The position numbers and the translations under genes are program-made. From an uncultured Fodinibius sp. (lineage in GTDB: Bacteria > Bacteroidota > Rhodothermia > Balneolales > Balneolaceae), in assembly GCA_913056455.1 (NCBI GenBank), contig CAJXMJ010000001.1:496001-560000 (forward strand): a stretch of 64,000 bases of DNA, in the 5' to 3' direction. Positions 20,487 to 24,716 of the stretch are shown piece after piece. Each line of letters opens with the position of its first letter. Position 1 is the stretch's first letter. Below the pieces are notes generated by a model. It searched no databases and was not told the origin of the DNA. It worked only from the letters and a program-made list of their open reading frames with translations.

Positions 20487-21485
20487 ATGTCTTTTTTATC
20501 GCCCCCGATTACAAAAAACAAGGATGGGAACTCAAGAATGGTGGGACTTGAGATTGAATTTGCAGGAATTGAGCCCATGCAGGCGGCTGAAATTATTACC
20601 TCGGTTTTTGGAGGAGAGATATCTAAAGAGCACCGTTATCAGATAAATATATCGGGCAGCGATCTGGGGGATTTCAGAGTAGAGCTGGATGCGCGTATTC
20701 TTCGTAGGATGGCCGAGGAAAATATTTTTGATAAACTTGGTATTAGCTTGGAGGAAGATTCTATACGCAAATCTATAGAAGATGTGGTAGATAAAATGGC
20801 ACGATCGGTCGTACCGCTCGAGATTGTAATGCCGCCGGTTAGTATCGATGAGCTGGAGAAGTTGGAAAACCTTCGGAAGGCTCTTCAGGAAAATAAAGCA
20901 AAGGGTACGTATGCTTCTATGGTACATGCTTTTGGGATGCACTTAAATATTGAGGCTCCCAATTTAAATGTAAAAACGCTGCTGAATTATTTGCGTGCGT
21001 TTGCGGTGGTGTATCCGTGGCTGCTTGAAGTACTGAGGATTGACATGACGCGACGGATATCTCCCTTTGTGGATCCATTTCCTGAAAAATATGTAAAGAA
21101 GATTTTGAGCCCGGAATATGCCCCGGATGTTGATCAATTCATTGAGGACTACATCGAATTTAATCCCACGCGTAATCGTCCCGTTGATATGATGCCAATA
21201 TTTGGGATGTTGAATGAAGATATAATTGAACCTGTAATGGAGGGAGAAAAGAACGATCCGCGTCCCACTTTTCATTACCGTTTGCCGAACAGCAGGATTG
21301 ATGACCCGGACTGGCGCTTTGAAGATGAGTGGAATCATTGGCTGGTGGTAGAAAGACTTGCCGCTGATGATGAAATGCTTAATAAGTTAAGTCGGTTATA
21401 TTTGTTGCGACGTGATCAAACAGTAATATCATTTCGTAAAGAATGGGCAAAAACCTTAGAAATATTGCTGGACTTAGATGAATAG
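20487..21485 (+). CDS. amidoligase family enzyme (PF12224-like)
   Basis: A 332-residue protein. The N-terminal MVGLEIEFAGI strand and the ISGSDLGDFRVELDAR stretch are those of the amidoligase branch of the glutamine-synthetase-like fold, with the paired acidic metal ligands (E-x-E and E-x-D). A second metal/His site is suggested by AFGMHLNIE. Enzymes of this group ligate amines to carboxylates using ATP; Iyer and colleagues described them by comparative genomics next to class I amidotransferases. The next gene is exactly that and overlaps by eight bases (ATG at 21478, stop at 21483). The product is unknown; peptide tagging or a small amide metabolite are both possible. Confidence 0.8.
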   Translation: MSFLSPPITKNKDGNSRMVGLEIEFAGIEPMQAAEIITSVFGGEISKEHRYQINISGSDLGDFRVELDARILRRMAEENIFDKLGISLEEDSIRKSIEDVVDKMARSVVPLEIVMPPVSIDELEKLENLRKALQENKAKGTYASMVHAFGMHLNIEAPNLNVKTLLNYLRAFAVVYPWLLEVLRIDMTRRISPFVDPFPEKYVKKILSPEYAPDVDQFIEDYIEFNPTRNRPVDMMPIFGMLNEDIIEPVMEGEKNDPRPTFHYRLPNSRIDDPDWRFEDEWNHWLVVERLAADDEMLNKLSRLYLLRRDQTVISFRKEWAKTLEILLDLDE

Positions 21486-22275
21486 AAGGAAACCAAATAT
21501 TGGGGTGACAGGACCTGATAAAGGAGGACGAGCGGCTTGGTGGTTTACTCGTTTTGCGGTGTTTCTTCACGGGGGGCGTGCTATTCATATACATCCACAA
21601 AAAGGGTTGCCTGAAGAAGATATCCATGGACTTATCATTGGAGGGGGTGCCGATATTAACCCGGAACGGTACGGGGCAGAAGATATTCGCGATCTGTTTT
21701 CGAAAGATGAAAAGGTATCGAGCCTGCGAAGGTTTTTTATTTATCTGTTAACGATAATATTTTTTCCTTTTATCTATTTTTTGCGGAAGATTTTTTCTGC
21801 TTCGTCGGAAGATATTGATGATAATCGTGATGAACTCGAGTTTGGGCTTATCGAAAAGGCAGTAGATAAAAATATTCCCATATTGGGAATATGCAGGGGA
21901 GCACAACTGTTAAATATACATTTTGGAGGTACTCTTCATCAGGATATCGCAGGATACTATACTGAAGTGCCCAGAATACAAAGCGTGTGGCCAAAGAAAA
22001 GGGTGGAGGTAGATGGTAATAGCATGCTACATGATATTTTGACTTTTGAAAAGGTATGGGTTAATGCACTACATCATCAGGCTGTGGATGATTTGGGCGA
22101 AGGCTTAGCTGTTGTTGCTAAAGAAGAAAATGGCATTATCCAGGCCATTGAGCACACCAACCGGAATTTTATTCTGGGCGTACAATGGCATCCCGAATAT
22201 ATGCCGCAAATACCGGCTCAGCGACGGGTTTTTAAACGGTTGGTAGCGGCAGCCAAGACAAGGATGACAAAATAA
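21478..22275 (+). CDS. class I glutamine amidotransferase-like hydrolase (peptidase C26, PuuD-like)
   Basis: A 265-residue protein. The catalytic cysteine is in LGICRGAQ (C139), and the His/Glu pair is in VQWHPEY near the C terminus, as in gamma-glutamyl-GABA hydrolase. The N-terminal TGPDKGGRAAW and GLIIGGGADINPERYG blocks are also typical. Residues 84-106 form an unusually hydrophobic run (FFIYLLTIIFFPFIYFL) that looks like a membrane-anchoring insertion between the family motifs. It overlaps the amidoligase gene by eight bases, so translation is coupled and both probably act on one substrate: hydrolysis of an amide formed by the ligase, or ammonia supply. Confidence 0.85.
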   Translation: MNRRKPNIGVTGPDKGGRAAWWFTRFAVFLHGGRAIHIHPQKGLPEEDIHGLIIGGGADINPERYGAEDIRDLFSKDEKVSSLRRFFIYLLTIIFFPFIYFLRKIFSASSEDIDDNRDELEFGLIEKAVDKNIPILGICRGAQLLNIHFGGTLHQDIAGYYTEVPRIQSVWPKKRVEVDGNSMLHDILTFEKVWVNALHHQAVDDLGEGLAVVAKEENGIIQAIEHTNRNFILGVQWHPEYMPQIPAQRRVFKRLVAAAKTRMTK

Positions 22276-22277
22276 AA

Positions 22278-22308
22278 AAGCAGGGGCTTTGGTATAAAAC
22301 CCCTGCTT
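22278..22308 (-). terminator. bidirectional intrinsic terminator
   Basis: AAGCAGGGG and CCCCTGCTT form a perfect 9-bp stem between convergent genes. On the minus strand it is followed by TTTTTATTTTG, so it best serves the Dabb gene; it may also stop plus-strand transcription from the amidoligase operon. Confidence 0.8.
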
Positions 22309-22333: not shown

Positions 22334-22654
22334 TTAGGTGTCCACTTTGTAATCAACGAAGTGGCGTTCTTCGATCACCGAGTTAATAAATTTCACAGCC
22401 TTTTTATGATTTTCATCACGAGTATACATAGTGTAATCCAGCTCTGTTTCAAAATCAGAGATCAGAACTACATCATACGGTGAACCCGCTTCGTCGTCAT
22501 CTTCAGAAATATTGATTCCAACTTCTACATTTTTAATTTCGTCGATATTTACTTTTAGTCCCTCCAGGATAAGTTTCATCTTTTCGGCATTCTTTTCCTT
22601 GGTGGCACCTTCCGCTTCTTCTTTTAATTTCCACATTACTACGTGACGAATCAT
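22334..22654 (-). CDS. Dabb (stress-responsive A/B barrel) family protein
   Basis: A 106-residue single-domain protein. It opens with MIRHVVMWKLKEEAEG, has the central VEVGINISEDD strand and ends RHFVDYKVDT, the layout of the Dabb ferredoxin-like dimeric barrel. Members are linked to salt or other stress in plants and to small-molecule enzymes in bacteria; the role here is unknown. It is downstream of the HU-LysM gene with a 69-base gap, and has its own terminator at 22278. Confidence 0.85.
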   Translation of the reverse strand: MIRHVVMWKLKEEAEGATKEKNAEKMKLILEGLKVNIDEIKNVEVGINISEDDDEAGSPYDVVLISDFETELDYTMYTRDENHKKAVKFINSVIEERHFVDYKVDT

Positions 22655-22723: not shown

Positions 22724-24430
22724 TTAGCGGGCTTTGTTGGCATAAGAAAGATCTGTTTTATCTATTGGTACATCAGCAAGCTGTTGTAAATCATCGTGGT
22801 ACAACTTGGCAGCCCAAAGGTGATTTTTAGCTTTGGATTGCTCATTGCTTTTATACCATTTGTAGGTGGCGATAAATCCTTTGGCAACACCCACTGAATC
22901 GGTACTGGTAAGGGTGTTCTGCGGCCCTGATGGCAATGGTACAGAAAGTGAACTGCCGGCGTAAATTAAATCGGGATCTTCAAGTGAACCATTATTGCCG
23001 TAAATCCATGGCCATAAACGAGGGTTTCCATATCGGTCTTCGGCAAGGCTCCACAAGGTTTGTCCTTCTTCAATTTCAACAGACTGATTATCAGGCGCTG
23101 TATTACCTGTTGATTGTTGTGTTGCTGAAGACTGCGTTGACGCTTGTGACTGATTTTGTGCTGATTCTTGAGAATCTTCGGTCTCTTGCTGCTGAGTGTT
23201 AACTTCCTGTGCAGCATCAGTTGAAGTTGTTGGTTCTTCCGATGAAGAAATCAGTGTAGTATCATTTGTTGATAACGTACTGTAATACCATGCTCCTCCT
23301 GCAATAAGTAGCAATACAATGGCAGCAGCTGCCACGTATGAAAATGAAGAACTTCGATCGGATGGACGACTTGTTGGGGGAGTAGGATATTGGGAGTTTT
23401 TATCTTCGAGGTCAGACTGTTCTTGTTGATCCTGTTTTAAGTCTTGAGCTGTTTCTTCGAGCTTTTCTACTTCTTCTGCAAGGACTTCTTCTTCAGACTT
23501 TGTTGCTTCTTTCTCTTCGTCGTCTTCTTCCTCGCTTGATCCTGTTTCGTCTAATTTATCTTCAAATTCTTGAGGTTCATTTGTTTCGGGCTCAGTTTCC
23601 TCTACTGCTTCGATATCTTCGGAGGTTTCATCCTGCTGTTCTTTTTCTTCTGAACCAATGAACTCTTCAAGGAGGTCATCTTCAGTATCTGATGCGGCAG
23701 CCCTAAATTCGACAATATCCCCATTGTCATCATCCTCAATATCATCCGAGCTTTCAGAGGCTGAGGCTTCACTTATATCCTCATCAGATTCTTGCTGTGC
23801 TTCAAAACTAAATGGAAAATCTTCCTCAGTTTCTATTTGGTTCTTATCACTGGTTTTATCCTCATCACTATCTTGCTGGTGTGAGGTGGGGGGAGCAGTT
23901 GGAATAAAATCGTCTTCGTTTAGTTTCTGCTCTTCTGAACTTTCCGGAATATCGGATTCTGATTTCTGTTCCTTTTGAGCTTGCTTATTGTCTTCATCAA
24001 TGCTACTACTGCTATCAATAGCTGACTTTTCCGTTTGGGAATCCACTGCTTGGTGGTCAGCTGAGGAGTGATCTTCAGCATTAGATGTAGTCTCCTCTTC
24101 TTTTTCCTCCTCTTCTATAAGTTGCGGCTCCATATGTGCATAGGGAGCATTAACAAGTTCTCTCAGATCTTTGTAAGGCTTGAAAACCACCTTGTTATGG
24201 GCGGGAATAGTTATCTTTTCCTCGGTTTGTGGGTTATACCCTTCGCGTTCATCCACGCGTTGAAGTTCAAACTTCCCGAAGCCGGCAATATTTACCTTGC
24301 CGTCTTCTTCGAGTCCACCATTGATGATATCCACAAAATCCTTGAGAAAATCGTGGGTAAACTGCTTGGAGTGCTCTGTTTCCTCAGCAATCGACTCAAT
24401 AAGTTCTCCAAATGTAACTTTTTCACTCAT
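22724..24430 (-). CDS. HU-domain / transmembrane / LysM fusion protein
   Basis: A 568-residue protein of unusual layout. Residues 1-95 are a complete HU/IHF DNA-binding domain, including the GFGKFELQ and GYNPQTEEKI parts of the beta-arm. Residues 100-355 are an acidic, Ser/Glu/Asp-rich disordered linker. One transmembrane helix follows (about 364-383, YVAAAAIVLLLIAGGAWYY). After a Gln/Ser/Thr-rich spacer, residues 450-500 are a LysM module (EGQTLWSLAEDRYGN...DPDLIYAGSSLSVP). There is no signal peptide, so HU should be cytosolic and LysM periplasmic. The protein could link nucleoid, inner membrane and peptidoglycan. Its start overlaps the stop of an HU gene by eight bases. Confidence 0.85.
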   Translation of the reverse strand: MSEKVTFGELIESIAEETEHSKQFTHDFLKDFVDIINGGLEEDGKVNIAGFGKFELQRVDEREGYNPQTEEKITIPAHNKVVFKPYKDLRELVNAPYAHMEPQLIEEEEKEEETTSNAEDHSSADHQAVDSQTEKSAIDSSSSIDEDNKQAQKEQKSESDIPESSEEQKLNEDDFIPTAPPTSHQQDSDEDKTSDKNQIETEEDFPFSFEAQQESDEDISEASASESSDDIEDDDNGDIVEFRAAASDTEDDLLEEFIGSEEKEQQDETSEDIEAVEETEPETNEPQEFEDKLDETGSSEEEDDEEKEATKSEEEVLAEEVEKLEETAQDLKQDQQEQSDLEDKNSQYPTPPTSRPSDRSSSFSYVAAAAIVLLLIAGGAWYYSTLSTNDTTLISSSEEPTTSTDAAQEVNTQQQETEDSQESAQNQSQASTQSSATQQSTGNTAPDNQSVEIEEGQTLWSLAEDRYGNPRLWPWIYGNNGSLEDPDLIYAGSSLSVPLPSGPQNTLTSTDSVGVAKGFIATYKWYKSNEQSKAKNHLWAAKLYHDDLQQLADVPIDKTDLSYANKAR

Positions 24431-24716
24431 CGTCTATATCCACTTGTTTTAAGTCTTCTTTTAGTCCCTTACTGGGATTAAAATCAACAACCCGTTTTGG
24501 GGGTAGCTTCATGTATTGCTCATAGTGCGGATTATAAGATTTTCTTTTTTTTCGAGTAGTAGTACCAAACGTTCCCAGTTCCGGTATCGAAAATGAATTA
24601 CCGGAAGCGATATTTTCAGTAAATGTTTGGGTAATAACGTTTAAAAAGTCACGTGCTTCAGCATGCGTCATATCCCAGTTTTCTGCAAGTATGGCTACTA
24701 CATCGCTCGTATTCAT
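24423..24716 (-). CDS. HU family DNA-binding protein
   Basis: A 97-residue basic DNA-bending protein. It shows the N-terminal helix pair (SDVVAILAENWDMTHAEARDFLNVIT), the GNSFSIPELGTFG turn and the beta-arm with KKRKSYNPHYEQ and PPKRVVDFNP, as in HU/IHF. It is somewhat divergent from housekeeping HU and is probably specialised. Its last codons overlap the start of the HU-LysM fusion gene by eight bases, so the two are translated together and may form heterodimers. It is divergent from aconitase. Confidence 0.88.
   Translation of the reverse strand: MNTSDVVAILAENWDMTHAEARDFLNVITQTFTENIASGNSFSIPELGTFGTTTRKKRKSYNPHYEQYMKLPPKRVVDFNPSKGLKEDLKQVDIDDE

Follow-up and report, generated by a model that had tools for sequence, protein, structure and literature searches.

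An overlapping HU gene and HU–transmembrane–LysM fusion gene in Fodinibius as a candidate wall-anchored HU pair

The window, by which we mean the whole stretch of 64,000 nt analysed here from an uncultured Fodinibius sp., carries a plain HU gene overlapping a second gene that encodes an HU domain, a long acidic linker, a single transmembrane helix, a LysM module and a helical tail. The fusion was found in 61 distinct genes from Balneolaceae, Fidelibacterota (Marinimicrobia) and Bacteroidales, and comes with its own dedicated upstream HU gene. On the strength of conserved sequence features, we propose with moderate confidence that the pair codes for an HU heterodimer anchored to the wall and serving as a nucleoid tether. 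A search of the accessible literature turned up no description of an HU-LysM fusion.

The gene pair and the fusion protein

Both ORFs are intact and lie on the window's minus strand. The first gene of the pair (24423..24716, 97 aa) encodes the plain partner HU, with the HU family PF00216 matching residues 1-89 (E 1.4e-19), and the second (22724..24430, 568 aa plus stop) encodes the fusion. The fusion start and the partner stop share an 8 nt overlap (ATGAGTGA, 24423..24430), which suggests translational coupling. PF00216 matched the whole domain in the two HU proteins (89 and 70.6 bits, versus a gathering score of 22.4). The preliminary description of this DNA correctly recognised an HU-TM-LysM fusion overlapping an HU gene by eight bases; the topology that it proposed, with HU inside and LysM outside the membrane, is supported, and the part order that it reported recurs in all 61 distinct genes from the three phyla. 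A chance fusion or frameshift artefact is excluded by this identical order, since HU and LysM/tail are conserved in the 61 distinct loci while the linkers vary. Two fusion genes, in L016 (G024) and L131 (G446), are broken between HU/TM and LysM, either by a frameshift or by an assembly error.

Downstream of the pair lies a Dabb-domain gene (22334..22654, minus strand; PF07876, E 4.7e-21), followed on the same strand by a terminator-like hairpin with T-run (22278..22308, a consensus match only). The Dabb gene probably shares a transcript with the pair and lies outside the module; a functional tie was rejected because Dabb persists in congeners lacking the pair (87–90% identity) and mostly does not adjoin the pair in other lineages. 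Further along the window (20487-22275), an amidoligase_2 gene (PF12224) overlaps a Peptidase_C26-type glutamine amidotransferase gene, possibly forming a ligase/hydrolase set for an amide-linked product.

All parts of the fusion are encoded on the minus strand. Its HU domain (residues 1-95, 24146..24430; PF00216 at 9-94, E 2.5e-25) includes the DNA-bending arm and is modelled as an HU fold with a pLDDT of about 90. The acidic, disordered cytoplasmic linker (residues 101-355, 23366..24130), recognised by composition and low pLDDT, consists of about 255 residues with 37% D+E and 7% K+R, and has a pLDDT <50 across 106-139 and 143-312 in the full-length AlphaFold model. It is followed by the transmembrane helix (residues 362-385, 23276..23347; hydrophobic segment at about 362-380, modelled helix 363-385), a spacer, the LysM module (residues 446-500, 22931..23095) and a 68-residue C-terminal helical hairpin (residues 501-568, 22727..22930; modelled helices 509-528, 534-544 and 558-567), a tail that is conserved across phyla. 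The full-length model, a single chain like all AlphaFold models used here, shows the HU fold with arm, the disordered linker, the helix at 363-385 and the LysM. Within the genus, identity is 80–95% for HU and 62–96% for LysM, and just 23–62% for the linker. The linker of L026 (G023) contains a simple-sequence tract, a long run of Glu-Pro repeats, which may vary in length.

Sequence matches and the structural model together indicate that the LysM is real but diverged. The Pfam LysM family (PF01476) gave no match to the window fusion at E≤0.1, the gathering score not being reached, and the LysM of relatives scored 17–18 bits against a cut-off of 20.9. The NCBIfam model PRK11198 (LysM protein) matched residues 437-498 (E 8.4e-8, below its equivalog cut-off), and the PDB entries matching in sequence were the LysM domains of TsaP and Kbp. 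The AlphaFold model of residues 440-568, comprising LysM and helical hairpin (pLDDT 90.6), displays the β-α-α-β fold of LysM domains, and in VIA-align the Kbp LysM ranked first with Z 6.4–7.1 over about 60 residues, which is a middling score, but LysM domains fill most of the match list; the LysM of a T. thermophilus NlpC/P60 protein also aligned (Z 4.9). No SPOR domain was detected in the fusion by Pfam search.

The topology, with HU in the cytoplasm, LysM in the periplasm and a single membrane pass, is well supported by sequence features. All 68 scored proteins had exactly one hydrophobic segment, no signal peptide precedes the fusion HU, and positive charges near the helix (K+R) averaged 3.7 inside versus 1.35 outside, the N-terminal side being richer in 59 of the 63 untied proteins, with kinship among the scored proteins inflating both counts.

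Distribution, pairing and ancestry

The host sits with Fodinibius/Aliifodinibius (Balneolaceae), with Aliifodinibius salipaludis WN023 and Fodinibius halophilus 2W32 as close relatives. A profile of the LysM plus tail, searched in a 395-genome sample of the host's phylum, gave 40 genomes with matches at E<1e-26, each of them a member of the host's family (40 of the 46 sampled there). Below a gap in E-value, ordinary LysM proteins started at 2e-15; those of other Bacteroidota were rejected as family members, as their matches span only about 60 positions in ORFs mostly of 130–310 aa. The fusion was absent from the 24 genomes sampled from other families of the host's order. The overlapping pair was also detected in one Fidelibacterota (Neomarinimicrobiota) MAG and one Bacteroidales MAG, and the HU form in two further Bacteroidales genomes; the only positive among 345 Bacteroidia genomes was the one already known. 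None of 64 Latescibacterota genomes contained a family member, in a set without a positive control. A viral origin was rejected, as the 63 viral-contig matches cover HU only and none matches the fusion.

In Fidelibacterota the LysM-plus-tail module was present in 27/245 genomes, and the fetched loci showed 18 with HU-TM-LysM, two with lipoprotein-like LysM proteins, and seven in which DUF1508 (UPF0339) takes the place of HU on the TM-LysM-tail anchor. The seventh of these DUF1508-TM-LysM genes is near-identical to another; each of the six distinct ones lacks an HU partner and is closely followed by a free DUF1508 gene (L097:808-1866 and 1882-2061; also L098, L100 and L102-L104). Judged by gene content, this set is a parallel of the HU pair, with one copy of a domain free and another fused to the anchor.

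The preliminary description suggested checking whether the neighbouring HU gene is conserved, and the association turned out stricter than it had guessed. When every ORF of the fetched loci was scanned, an HU gene was located directly upstream on the same strand for 60 of the 61 distinct HU-TM-LysM genes, and the remaining one starts at a contig end. Junctions were scored for 61 pairs (counting the window locus twice), with 8 nt overlaps in 28 and 4 nt overlaps in 18, together 46/61; the others were small overlaps, or gaps of up to 11 nt. A partner-clade profile (E≤1e-32) matched in 24 of 59 relatives, every time beside the fusion and nowhere else, and the fusion-less genomes among these relatives gave housekeeping HU scores only. 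An apparent orphan partner HU in G031 is actually a housekeeping HU, and in G019 the fusion is represented only by its LysM end, on a short contig. Some Fidelibacterota partner HUs have a long C-terminal extension (241–245 aa; L120:1525-2259, L123:1415-2140).

The pair is absent, at a conserved site, from four of 12 sampled congeners. In these four genomes the two genes flanking the pair in the window, aconitase and Dabb, are adjacent, with about 390–430 bp between them, and both genes of the pair are therefore missing together. The pair is dispensable, and its absence from these congeners and from the order's other families means that segregation cannot generally depend on it.

A tree of 64 HU domains, in which five E. 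coli and B. subtilis references served for orientation only, placed 27 fusion HUs in one clade (support 99/92) and 27 partner HUs in another (100/99), both apart from housekeeping HU. Distances in one clade agree with those in the other (Mantel r 0.83, 0/2000 permutations), as expected for genes inherited together, shared ancestry contributing to the correlation. Two paralogous clades whose members always occur together form the pattern seen for old subunit pairs such as IHF alpha and beta. The genome also encodes a third HU type (L003:1489-1821; C1:104918 onward), whose gene immediately precedes that of a YqgF-like Holliday junction resolvase.

Features of DNA-bending HU proteins are retained in both clades. 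The arm strands are modelled, and the intercalating proline at the arm tip (Pro63, E. coli HU numbering) is present in 61/62 fusions and 58/61 partners; Gly48 is found in all copies and Arg58 in 50/62 fusions. The net charge in this genome is -8 for the fusion HU, -3 for the partner and -1 for the housekeeping HU, and non-specific DNA binding by so acidic a fusion HU could be weak.

A proposed nucleoid tether and its alternatives

We propose that the two genes specify a dedicated two-subunit HU. Coupled translation would produce the free HU and the fusion's HU domain together, and the two would then associate on DNA at the inner membrane, an IHF-like heterodimer being the likeliest form. With its N-terminus inside, the fusion would cross the membrane once, its LysM and tail holding peptidoglycan and its long, variable, disordered linker acting as a flexible leash. 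Such a complex would tie nucleoid DNA to the cell wall, much as HubP acts but with a DNA-binding domain of its own, and may influence chromosome placement. Against this stand the sub-threshold Pfam scores of LysM in relatives, the acidity of the fusion HU and the dispensability of the pair. Some LysM folds, such as those of Kbp and of phage baseplates, serve other work.

The HU domains might instead no longer bind DNA and be used for protein pairing in a scaffold at the envelope, a role that has been proposed for CCDC81-type HU domains. Such a scaffold would fit the negative net charge of this genome's fusion HU, the exchange of HU for DUF1508 in one clade and the loss of the arm in an HU-SPOR paralogue. 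Unlike HU-SPOR, however, almost every fusion and partner across the three phyla retains the arm with its tip proline and basic positions, and we regard the scaffold as unlikely. Scarcely different in probability is a membrane one-component regulator in the manner of CadC/ToxR, with the HU pair binding specific promoters or bending membrane-associated DNA while LysM and tail sense the state of the wall. IHF-type two-subunit HUs can be site-preferring, and the LysM-plus-tail module is almost as conserved as HU; however, there is no linked set of wall genes, the neighbours change between lineages, and the long, fast-changing linker fits a leash better than signal transfer.

Since HU proteins often homodimerise, the neighbouring HU could also be an independent nucleoid protein merely sharing the operon, each HU then being homodimeric, but strict co-occurrence, loss as a unit and the separate ancient clade of partner HUs make this a little more doubtful still. 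A reversed topology, with a periplasmic HU binding extracellular DNA (as some nucleoid proteins of the HU class do) or wall material, is highly improbable given the absent signal peptide, the charge bias placing the N-terminus inside, and the acidic leash that HubP/FimV likewise keep inside.

The tether could have a wider counterpart. We consider it possible, as a tentative extension from the comparative data, that the pair represents an HU of two subunits, ancient in the FCB group (Balneolota, Fidelibacterota and Bacteroidales), with holding the nucleoid to peptidoglycan as its sole job, and that the rule of one free and one anchored copy extends to DUF1508. If this rule does hold there, DUF1508 (UPF0339) would be a nucleoid- or nucleic-acid-binding domain, which would give the first functional lead for this family.

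A direct protein link between chromosome and wall has often been imagined, and to our knowledge the characterised systems are indirect, like HubP working through ParA1. A two-gene module with both binding ends would open such a link to testing by a single deletion and two pull-downs, and if the tether is real it would also constitute a new kind of HU heterodimer.

Comparison with known systems

HU proteins fused to wall-binding domains are already known in the form of HU-TM-SPOR proteins (HU-CCDC81_bac, PF18174/PF18175; Bacteroidota). These are the closest to the fusion in design and share with it an HU-like domain, an acidic linker, one helix and a wall-binding domain, but have SPOR in place of LysM and lack a partner HU. 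Such a gene is present in the same genome (G000:C2:776928-778079, equal to L096:2929-4080), and its HU has no DNA-bending arm, unlike that of the LysM fusion. All 24 genomes examined contained HU-TM-SPOR, whether or not they had the LysM pair. We know of no earlier description of an obligate partner HU gene or of an HU-to-DUF1508 swap on the same anchor. A role in chromosome partition was reportedly predicted for HU-TM-SPOR proteins by Burroughs et al. in 2017. The preliminary description saw the fusion and overlooked both this second HU-TM-wall protein and the envelope-anchor precedent of HubP/FimV.

The arm-less, CCDC81-like HU-TM-SPOR gene lies directly upstream of ExbB/TolQ, ExbD/TolR and TonB/TolA-like genes. 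The same region (L096) has curlin-repeat proteins and a CsgG-like gene (C2:785548-788660) near a short LysM protein (C2:784011-784751), together a curli-like locus.

The LysM itself compares best, in sequence and in modelled fold, with that of TsaP and Kbp (YgaU), which is of the same long type (WPxIYxxN...NP...G...P); unlike in these proteins, it is here fused to HU and followed by the conserved helical hairpin. The likeness to IHF alpha/beta lies in two paralogous HU-fold subunits, each with its own clade and with the arm prolines kept, whereas here the genes overlap, one subunit is fused to a membrane anchor, and the heterodimer is predicted.

The polar landmark proteins HubP/FimV, the closest in mechanism, share with the fusion an outside LysM, a single membrane pass and a long, acidic, disordered cytoplasmic part. 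Their LysM is N-terminal and periplasmic and their FimV TPR domain C-terminal and cytoplasmic, an arrangement not found in the fusion, where the order is reversed with HU at the N-terminus and LysM at the C-terminus. FimV binds peptidoglycan through its LysM (PMC12918733), and oriC1 is tethered to the pole by ParA1, a protein that HubP recruits (PMC5353653). HubP thus contacts DNA through ParA1, whereas the fusion carries an HU domain of its own, and by analogy the LysM-anchored HubP/FimV proteins provide a precedent for reading the HU pair as a tether.
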